This document shows positions 1 to 25,694 of a stretch of DNA of 25,694 nucleotides, piece after piece. Every line of letters starts with the position of its first letter. Positions within the stretch are counted from its first letter, which is position 1. Location: positions 1 through 25,694 of the IMG/VR virus record IMGVR_UViG_3300020145_000002. One strand, given 5' to 3'. The DNA comes from a virus. Position numbers and translations under genes: made by a program. Under the pieces are notes generated by a model. That model did no database searches. It had not been told where the DNA came from and worked only from the letters and a program-made list of their open reading frames with translations.

Positions 1-90
1 GAGCGGTTGAGGGCTGGTGCCCTCCCAGGACTTCAAATCCTGTGCACCGCCCAAAAGGCGGTGGGTGGGTTCAATTCCCATCCGCTCCCG
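1..90 (+). tRNA. selC: Selenocysteine tRNA (UCA anticodon), missing its first 2 bases
   Basis: The sequence folds as a bacterial tRNA-Sec. Bases 1-6 pair with 82-87, and C88-C89 would pair with two bases just left of the window, giving the 8-bp acceptor stem typical of tRNA-Sec. The D-stem has 6 bp (9-14 with 19-24) around a 4-base TGGT loop. The anticodon stem is 26-30 with 38-42, and the loop CTTCAAA carries TCA. The long variable arm has 7 bp (45-51 with 57-63). The T-loop is TTCAATT (70-76), and the discriminator is G90, as in other bacterial tRNA-Sec. No CCA is encoded. An opal-suppressor tRNA-Ser is the alternative, but the 6-bp D-stem and 8-bp acceptor argue for Sec. Whether it belongs to the host or the phage cannot be decided here; selC is a known integration site for mobile elements. 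Confidence 0.88.
60..90 (+). other. Candidate phage attachment site (attL) in the 3' end of tRNA-Sec
   Basis: Tyrosine recombinases commonly integrate into the 3' half of tRNA genes and leave a copy of the tRNA 3' end at each prophage boundary. Here phage genes start just after the tRNA, and a tyrosine integrase sits at the opposite end of the window. I found no second copy of this 3' end inside the window, so the partner site would have to lie beyond 25694. The call rests on position, not on a seen repeat. Confidence 0.35.
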
Positions 91-3734: not shown

Positions 3735-4304
3735 ATGCTTCCACGCTTTCGTGAATGCTTGAAGTTTGTGCTTAAGTGGGAAGGTGGGTTCAGTAACCAT
3801 CCAGCGGACAGGGGCGGGGCAACTAACAAAGGCATTACGCAAGCAACTTACGATGCTTACCGCAAGGGGAAGGGTTTACCGCTTAGAAGCGTGAAGTTCA
3901 TCACGGATGAAGAAGTGGAAGAAATCTACTACACCAAGTATTACCTGCCTTCCAAAGCGCACTTGATGCCCCCGCCCTTGGATGTTGTAGTATTTGATAC
4001 TGCAGTGAACATGGGCGTGAAAACTTCCGCAATTTTGTTGCAGAAAGCGCTACAAGAACTGGGCTACTACACGCTTGCGGTGGACGGGATTGTAGGTGAA
4101 CTTACCCTTCACGCAATCAGAAAAGCACAAGAAAAGGATGCGCTGTTTTCGGTGATAGTTAAGTATGTGCAACTTCGCATTCAGCGTTATCGGGGGATAG
4201 TTGCAAAAAACCCTTTCCAGCGGGTTTTCTTGAAGGGATGGTTAAACAGGGCGTTAGATTTGCTGAACTACTGCAAGAAGTGGGGGGCACAAGTTGGGGC
4301 TTGA
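3735..4304 (+). CDS. Endolysin, GH108-type N-acetylmuramidase with peptidoglycan-binding domain
   Basis: This enzyme cuts the glycan strands of peptidoglycan for host lysis. The N-terminus holds the GH108 signature: WEGGFSNHPADRGGATNKGIT begins at residue 15, with E16 of the EGG motif as the expected catalytic acid. The remainder, from about residue 90, resembles the peptidoglycan-binding domain that usually follows GH108 (VDGIVGELT at about 115-125). The length of 189 residues is normal for the family. There is no signal peptide, so release would need a holin. The ribosome site GTAGGTGAACGAAC precedes the ATG, 15 bp after the portal stop. The last 23 bases of the coding region also form the 5' part of a tRNA-like fold (separate entry). 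A virion-bound lysozyme acting at entry is a less likely alternative. Confidence 0.85.
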   Translation: MLPRFRECLKFVLKWEGGFSNHPADRGGATNKGITQATYDAYRKGKGLPLRSVKFITDEEVEEIYYTKYYLPSKAHLMPPPLDVVVFDTAVNMGVKTSAILLQKALQELGYYTLAVDGIVGELTLHAIRKAQEKDALFSVIVKYVQLRIQRYRGIVAKNPFQRVFLKGWLNRALDLLNYCKKWGAQVGA

Positions 4305-4365
4305 CGCCACCATAGCCCCGAAGCGGGCGGTGGCGGAAGGGGTTCAAATCCCCTGCCCTCCACCA
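4282..4365 (+). ncRNA. tRNA-like element with encoded CCA, overlapping the lysozyme 3' end
   Basis: GGGGGGC (4282-4288) pairs with GCCCTCC (4355-4361) to form a 7-bp acceptor stem with a G3-U70 wobble, followed by A and an encoded CCA (4363-4365). The T-arm is perfect: AGGGG, loop TTCAAAT, CCCCT (4338-4354). CAAG/CTTG (4290-4303) can form a short D-like arm. No normal anticodon arm exists; CGCCACC (4305-4311) pairs with GGTGGCG instead, enclosing GCCC/GGGC. A long helix in this position, with G3-U70, resembles the tRNA-like domain of tmRNA without its tag-coding part. It may equally be a tRNA 3' remnant left by an old integration, with chance pairing upstream. The T-arm/acceptor/CCA part is clear; the function is unknown. 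Confidence 0.5.
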
Positions 4366-4387: not shown

Positions 4388-4462
4388 GTTTGTGGGGTTT
4401 GGGTAAGGGTTTGCGTCTGATGGGATAAATCAGGATTGCCGACCCACTGCCCAACCCCCGCC

Positions 4463-5062
4463 CTATCGGGGTAACCCCACAGCGTTGTTCAACCACGAAG
4501 GTTTGCGGGAATTGAAGAAGCAGTAGGTAGCACTTCCCCCATCCAACCGCAGCAAAGCGTAGAAATCACCTTCCAACATCTTCGCAAGCCGTGCGGGGGG
4601 AATTCCATTTTCGCTTACCCCCAGCGAAATCTTCCTTCTATCTTTGTGCACTAAAATGAATGTGTAATTTCTGTGTGAAACAATGTAGGAACTTAAACCT
4701 TCCCGTTTAGAAACTTCCGCAGCACTGATTGCGATACCATCCTTCAGAAACAACCCCCCGCCCGTCAGCGCCCAACGGACATCTTGCGGGGAAATCTTTT
4801 TCCCGTTGAACTTCCTTCCTGCTTCAAAGTATCCCGCTTCAACCCTTCCATCTTTCCAGCACACCAACCCACCACGCCTGCGCATGGGAAGGGGGGAAAT
4901 TTCCTTCCCATCCCACCACACCAAACCCGCTAACCTTCCCGTTTTGGTGCAGTAAAAAGTCCCGCTGATGCCCACCTTGAACACAAGATAGGGGTTGTGG
5001 CGGGGTTTGTTGCTGCTAAACGCTAACGCTATCGCTAAAAATGTCCCTAAGAACTTCACCAT
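4463..5062 (-). CDS. NAGPA-type phosphodiester glycosidase-like protein, probably exported
   Basis: A 199-residue protein with a short basic start and a hydrophobic stretch (about residues 4-16) that looks like a signal peptide or anchor. The core matches the NAGPA/phosphodiester glycosidase fold: TGGGLFLKDG (100-109), KISLGVSENG (144-153) and the hallmark LDGGSAT (173-179) near the C-terminus. Relatives cleave N-acetylglucosamine-phosphodiester bonds or act in exopolysaccharide metabolism; the actual substrate here is unknown. It is the only leftward gene inside the virion block, convergent with the lysozyme and divergent from the protease, which is the arrangement of a moron. Its ribosome site is GGTGGTGGGGG just before the ATG. 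It might alter the host surface or assist wall breakdown. Confidence 0.7.
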   Translation of the reverse strand: MVKFLGTFLAIALAFSSNKPRHNPYLVFKVGISGTFYCTKTGRLAGLVWWDGKEISPLPMRRRGGLVCWKDGRVEAGYFEAGRKFNGKKISPQDVRWALTGGGLFLKDGIAISAAEVSKREGLSSYIVSHRNYTFILVHKDRRKISLGVSENGIPPARLAKMLEGDFYALLRLDGGSATYCFFNSRKPSWLNNAVGLPR

Positions 5063-25502: not shown

Positions 25503-25694
25503 CTACCTAATGCGTTGGCGGGGCAACTTAAGGGGAAGGTTAGCAAGGGGTGTGTATTTTTCATGCGGGGTTTTCAAATCTGAAGCGAACAAGCGTGCAT
25601 AATAAGAGGTCATGATGGGGGTAGTGTGCCCCAAGATGCGCTGAAGGATTAAACTATCACCCCCGCTTTCCAACCACTTGCGAACAAAAGTGAA
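25503..25694 (-). CDS. int: Tyrosine integrase, C-terminal part (start lies beyond the window)
   Basis: The last 63 codons of a tyrosine recombinase, open at the right edge. FTFVRKWLESGGDSLILQ is the helix after the catalytic H-x-x-R (just outside), LGH (residues 21-23 of the fragment) is the next catalytic box, and MTSYYARL ends with the nucleophile Tyr, probably the second Y (residue 32). The tail DLKTPHEKYTPL matches many phage integrases. It would catalyse integration and excision. Gene order, with the tRNA-Sec at the far end, fits a prophage whose right attachment site lies beyond this gene. Confidence 0.9.
   Translation of the reverse strand, partial: FTFVRKWLESGGDSLILQRILGHTTPIMTSYYARLFASDLKTPHEKYTPLANLPLKLPRQRIR

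Follow-up and report, generated by a model that had tools for sequence, protein, structure and literature searches.

What is the structured element that overlaps the 3' end of a phage lysozyme gene, and what would it do for the phage? The window, a 25,694-bp virus record, carries a tRNA-Sec gene at its left edge, followed by genes for the terminase, a portal protein with a Mu F-like domain, the lysozyme, a prohead protease, and the capsid. A reading made from the letters of the window (the sequence-only reading) had likened an element at the end of the lysozyme gene to the tRNA-like domain (TLD) of tmRNA. In bacteria, tmRNA rescues stalled ribosomes, and trans-translation is a main route of ribosome rescue. 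AlaRS, EF-Tu, and SmpB all bind tmRNA at its TLD; the G3-U70 pair is an alanine identity element.

The element is a tRNA-like domain without a tag frame

The covariance search proposed by the sequence-only reading favored tmRNA. The Rfam tmRNA model RF00023 aligned end to end (model positions 1-374, with the middle deleted), with 30.8 bits and an E-value of 5e-9 in a search of the whole window; this score falls below the curated cut-off of 47 bits. Of 20 other records that carry TLD-only phage RNAs, 18 exceed this cut-off. The tRNA model RF00005 listed nothing at the element up to an E-value of 10, and ARAGORN, run on the window, called it neither a tRNA nor a tmRNA, standard or permuted. A close relative, IMGVR_UViG_3300022545_000025 (L002/L009), carries the same element; RF00023 gives it 33.3 bits.

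A perfect T-arm, a 7-bp acceptor with G3-U70, an encoded CCA, and a long helix replacing the anticodon arm had been described earlier, and all were found in place in the fold and in the RF00023 alignment (Table 1). All seven acceptor pairs form, G3-U70 included, and with A73 the alanine identity for AlaRS is present. The long hairpin corresponds to tmRNA helix P2. It is an 11-bp arm with an AUA bulge on the 5' side and a 6-nt closing loop; a tRNA-type anticodon arm with a 7-nt loop is absent. The earlier judgment that there is no room for a tag reading frame also holds: in the RF00023 alignments of the window and its close relative, 13-14 nt separate the P2 strands, and there is neither a tag frame nor a pseudoknot. 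A CGGA junction connects the P2 hairpin to the T-arm. The element measures 84 nt, versus several hundred for bacterial tmRNA, and has a minimum free energy of -46.7 kcal/mol (z = -2.97). The minimum-energy fold contains a possible 5-bp D-stem (4290-4294 with 4299-4303); the family model described below is without such a stem. A full or permuted tmRNA at this location was rejected, because the tag-coding mRNA-like domain is absent and ARAGORN was negative.

Table 1. Positions of the element, its parts, and other features. Positions refer to the window unless another record is named.
Feature	Position	Strand	Evidence and remarks
TLD-only tmRNA (complete TLD, no mRNA-like domain)	4282..4365	+	RF00023 and family model R1
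Acceptor 5' strand, GGGGGGC	4282..4288	+	Partner 4355-4361, G3-U70; fold; acceptor covaries in the family
D-domain, ACAAGUUGGGGCUUGA	4289..4304	+	Followed by C-G (4305-4306), completing the GACG motif; fold and R1
P2 hairpin, CGCCACC-AUA-GCCC-loop-GGGC-GGUGGCG	4305..4335	+	Stands where tmRNA has its tag-coding region and pseudoknots
T-arm, AGGGG-UUCAAAU-CCCCU	4338..4354	+	5 bp, loop UUCAAAU; RF00023 alignment and fold
Acceptor 3' strand, GCCCUCC (4355-4361), with A73 and encoded CCA (ACCA, 4362-4365)	4355..4365	+	RF00023 alignment and fold
Lysozyme (glycosyl hydrolase 108 and peptidoglycan-binding domain)	3735..4304	+	PF05838 (E 8.6e-29), PF09374
Lysozyme UGA stop, within the D-domain	4302..4304	+	The UGA of UUGACG
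tRNA-Sec	1..89	+	69.7 bits, cut by the contig edge
tRNA-Sec, L009	10743..10835	-	80.1 bits, complete
Non-coding stretch 3' of the TLD	4388..4480	+	No Rfam match
Tyrosine recombinase C-terminus, ..LQRILGHTTPIMTSYYARL..	25587..25688	-	PF00589 (E 3.7e-4), cut by the right contig end
Nucleotide-sugar epimerase, L212	1634..2695	+	PHROG (E 2e-35), 353-codon open frame
TLD-only RNA, L212	2668..2747		
TLD-only RNA, L004	6137..6215	+	42.6 bits
TLD-only tmRNA, cultured phage L290	2996..3076		Unannotated, no ARAGORN call
TLD-only tmRNA, cultured phage L298	1001..1082		Unannotated, no ARAGORN call
TLD-only tmRNA, cultured phage L299	1001..1083		Unannotated, no ARAGORN call
TLD-only tmRNA, cultured phage L307	596..676		Unannotated, no ARAGORN call

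TLD-only RNAs form a family in phages

Pattern scans of IMG/VR gave more than 70 distinct TLD-only RNAs in diverse phages. The first pattern asked for both tmRNA halves close together; it matched some full tmRNAs by coincidence and also gave RNAs in which roughly 80 nt or less separate the 5' acceptor and D-loop from the CCA. A stricter pattern matched 112 stretches. The distinct TLD-only candidates number 82 (74-85 nt; window and L009 not counted), or 56 after merging sequences within 15% of one another. The initial filter had required a paired acceptor whose 3' strand ends in UCC, so the count was redone on the second pattern, in which the 3' acceptor was unconstrained. Seven of seven acceptor pairs, G3-U70, and A73 were present in 72 of its 77 distinct hits; in three of the remaining five this acceptor is shifted by a single base, and the other two resemble ordinary tRNAs. 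The GACG motif (UUGACG at the end of the D-domain) is invariant or nearly so across the family.

Every helix covaries, P2 included, in both alignments A3 (18 sequences) and A4 (65 sequences). Two-sided changes occupy 342 cells of A4, versus 105 in shuffles, and the covariation score of A4 is 0.625, versus 0.06-0.10 with the partners slid. Fitting to the model biased A4 in the model's favor; A3, aligned with MAFFT alone, agrees with A4. Since P2 was part of no filter, its covariation is the cleanest evidence. The acceptor 5' arm, for which the sequence-only reading had named covariation as the test, covaries across the family in A3 and A4. The compensatory changes expected between related phages were thus found for the family in all helices; between the window and its close relative they were not, as the acceptor is unchanged in this pair and the differences, all confined to the P2 hairpin, leave its pairing intact. 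One of these differences is a one-base insertion in L009, which shifts any reading frame through the hairpin. The two records are 89% identical in the lysozyme body, 97.6% in the TLD, 97.9% in the structured stretch after it, and 96.5% in the next gene; because the value for the next gene is near that for the TLD, we do not use the identity of the TLD as evidence of constraint.

The model R1 was built from A3, which excludes the window and L009 elements. R1 finds the window element with 38.2 bits and an E-value of 9e-8 (4284-4365, model positions 1-81 of 81) and the L009 element with 41.6 bits and an E-value of about 1e-8; besides these two, nothing in the 37 kb searched exceeded 13.5 bits. 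Most other members score 50-93 bits on this scale; tRNAs reach about 30 bits, and full or permuted tmRNAs, when aligned locally, at most 37. The window element departs from the family in the D-domain and in the junction 5' of the T-arm. By these scores the window element is a divergent member of the family; we based its membership more on the complete, two-sided TLD than on its score.

Most members are intergenic or lie in tRNA arrays. A tRNA was present within 1 kb in 29 of 124 sampled loci, and in L165, L277, and phage Shaeky the TLD-only RNA occupies the gap between neighboring tRNA genes. Members tend to avoid the interior of open reading frames (18% inside, versus 61% for random places). 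In 20 whole records, the short TLD-only match was the only strong one, and no other tmRNA match exceeded 30 bits. None of 39 records contained an SmpB gene. For L082, L083, L105, L135, L261, L271, and L295, ARAGORN stretches a tmRNA of at least 300 nt over the short element, and none of our conclusions rests on these seven. The P2 internal loop (A4 columns 44-51) has a 5' strand whose consensus contains A-A-R.

Cultured phages carry these RNAs as well. We found them in Streptomyces phages LuckySocke, GiJojo, pSt2308, BRock, Alone3, and Shaeky and in Stenotrophomonas phage Jojan60, with 60-90 bits; none of the seven has a tmRNA annotation for the element, and a hypothetical protein is drawn over the whole TLD in GiJojo and over its start in Jojan60. 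TLD-only RNAs are thus missed by annotators and by ARAGORN, even in cultured, sequenced phages. Several further BLAST matches were rejected as TLD-only: Yeezy and Nibb have the tmRNA 3' half alone, adjoining an integrase gene, and in Rb1, XacN1, S-CRM01, PA_L9, RpAliso, and DLP_6 ARAGORN calls full or permuted tmRNAs. The BLAST matches SM1 and Vibrio D239 were left outside the set.

The lysozyme stop codon lies inside the TLD

The sequence-only reading had placed the 5' arm of the element in the end of a coding sequence, and the lysozyme frame does enter the 5' part of the TLD, by 23 nt. The TLD encodes the last seven lysozyme residues, WGAQVGA, and the UGA stop, and the overlap is kept in the close relative. 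Lysozyme relatives in L004, L005, and L008 stop earlier, with '..NRVIDLYNLIKK' or '..NRVIDLYKEVNK' aligned to '..NRALDLLNYCKK' of the window protein. A second coding gene, the putative epimerase of L212, also ends inside its own TLD-only RNA, where a UAA in the internal loop of P2 closes its frame. Coding genes thus end inside a TLD in two separate cases, the window pair and L212.

L004, a phage with a window-related lysozyme, carries a divergent TLD-only RNA that begins 3 nt past the stop of an open reading frame and lies 2.7 kb from the lysozyme gene. Among the 71 loci related to the window by portal or lysozyme, L004 was the only one in which a TLD was found; the link between TLD and lysozyme is therefore not general.

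Relation to known tmRNAs

To the sequence-only reading, a lysis mRNA ending in an aminoacylatable tRNA-like fold would have been new. The RNA has a precedent: the tmRNA of mycobacteriophage DS6A is reported as 'TLD only' (Mao et al. 2009, as related in PMC4131195 and PMC11915505). DS6A is the one phage named with a TLD-only tmRNA in the literature that we found, and no further phage is named in a 2025 tmRNA database paper. As described in these accounts, the kind is thus already known from one phage. The DS6A RNA is likened here by its description rather than its sequence: like the window element, it is phage-encoded, consists of little beyond the TLD, and has no tag frame. The overlap with a lysozyme stop and the longer D-domain of the window element are not part of that description. 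This analysis adds how widely the family occurs, the covariation of its helices, the strictness with which alanine identity is kept, and the location of a stop codon within the TLD.

Bacterial tmRNA (ssrA, RF00023) shares the G3-U70 acceptor, the GACG D-domain, P2, CGGA, the T-arm, and CCA with the window element; the latter differs in its lack of a tag frame and pseudoknots, its small size, and its short-looped P2. The tag-less mitochondrial and plastid tmRNAs (RF02544; jakobids, Mallomonadaceae) are likewise reduced to little beyond the TLD. These, however, are organellar and have a dedicated SmpB in the same cell, whereas the window element is phage-encoded and comes with no phage SmpB. The tmRNA-type attachment sites of temperate phages (e.g., OQ658364.1, Nibb) share the T-arm and acceptor 3' strand with the window element, but they hold only the 3' half, at the attachment site or adjoining an integrase gene.

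What the element may do

Because SmpB is bound by the TLD, and because a similar molecule is reported to be inhibitory, we read the element as a decoy that probably blocks host trans-translation through the host's SmpB. The TLD would be co-transcribed with the lysozyme gene and excised from the transcript by host tRNA-processing enzymes. Host AlaRS would then alanylate it through G3-U70 and A73, and host SmpB and EF-Tu would bind it. The TLD would compete with host tmRNA for SmpB and stalled ribosomes with no tag frame to offer, so that host trans-translation would be inhibited during phage gene expression. While we infer transcription, processing, charging, and SmpB binding, the inhibitory effect is suggested by analogy: a similar RNA is reported to inhibit host tmRNA, whether chargeable or not, perhaps via titration of SmpB (PMC4131195, citing Mao 2009). 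Phages may commonly block or hijack host ribosome rescue by TLD-only RNA, and whether they disable or rewire it with a minimal RNA has become a testable question.

One point speaks against a decoy: alanylation would be needless for it, yet the alanine identity is strictly kept, which leaves room for a tag-less rescue function. The alanine-charged RNA would enter stalled ribosomes with SmpB and help to free them without tagging, so that the ribosomes stay in use and phage proteins escape degradation. We consider this possible, though hardly likely. A pure SmpB decoy would not need the conserved identity elements, and tag-less mitochondrial tmRNAs with SmpB, for which the same function was suggested, provide a precedent. 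However, nothing is known to bring a reading frame or a stop codon into the decoding site, and the similar molecule is, in the account cited above, inhibitory rather than helpful. Stop triplets occur in 34 of 65 P2 internal loops, versus 19.6 in shuffles; this excess may be a structural motif and is no evidence of decoding.

The TLD might instead form the 3' terminus of the lysozyme mRNA, either as a site of RNase P cleavage or as a shield against exonucleases, and have no role in trans-translation. This agrees with the direct overlap between the TLD and the end of the lysozyme gene, which the relative shares, and with the second coding gene that ends inside its TLD in L212. Most members do not stand at the end of a gene, however, and a tRNA would suffice for such a purpose, whereas these RNAs keep a tmRNA-specific D-domain and G3-U70 and are missing the anticodon arm; we regard this explanation as unlikely.

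The position of the lysozyme stop has one further consequence: 5' processing would take the stop codon off the message. A lysis timer can be imagined on this basis, with coding stops inside the TLD and an RNase P cut at 4281/4282 that, if it occurs, would leave the upstream message without a stop. The lysozyme made from the nonstop message would be tagged by host tmRNA for destruction, until accumulating free TLD blocks trans-translation and lysozyme is spared. We see a parallel in arfA, whose expression is controlled by tmRNA. The idea is speculative and we consider it decidedly unlikely; if it were true, a single RNA would create a nonstop message and also disarm its surveillance. The arrangement in the window, an RNA holding the stop codon of a lysis gene, links RNA processing, nonstop messages, and lysis.

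A degenerate tRNA that lost its anticodon arm is very improbable. In favor of this reading, the fold of lowest energy is a cloverleaf that includes a D-stem, and the tRNA-Sec model RF01852 gives 22.7 bits on the relative; RF00023 nevertheless scores higher, RF00005 lists nothing at the element, and G3-U70, GACG, and CGGA are tmRNA features common to the family, whose model R1 finds the element at an E-value of about 1e-7.

The alternative offered by the sequence-only reading, an old attachment-site remnant, here from integration into a host tmRNA gene, has turned out to be highly improbable. It would fit the tmRNA 3' halves that adjoin integrase genes in other phages, and the truncated tyrosine recombinase at the right contig end indicates that the phage may be temperate. 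However, the whole TLD is present, its 5' half intact, and no exact copy of the 28-nt core (4338-4365) occurs in 84,980 species genomes; these may not include the host, so the absence is not final. Among viral contigs, L009 was the only other carrier of a 27-nt core. The recombinase is the only such trace and lies about 21 kb from 4282, with no integrase gene adjacent to the element; tRNA arrays hold independent members of the family; and, if the phage is temperate, the more natural candidate for an attachment site would be the tRNA-Sec at the left edge.

That the lysozyme UGA is read as selenocysteine, with the hairpin as a bacterial SECIS, has a negligible probability: the hairpin is directly 3' of the UGA at 4302, the phage encodes tRNA-Sec, and the frame is open past the UGA in the window, but the extension is not conserved, since the relative's one-base insertion puts it out of frame, and the lysozyme relatives in L004, L005, and L008 end short of this point.

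Other features of the window

The portal protein, compared with genome contigs, had two distant matches only, to Planctomycetota and Zixibacteria, at 31% identity. The tRNA-Sec, which is complete in the close relative, is either an unusual cargo for a phage or an attachment site. The non-coding stretch 3' of the TLD is conserved between the window and the close relative and folds strongly in both; when folded from 4366, its z-score is -2.95 in the window and -3.74 in the relative.
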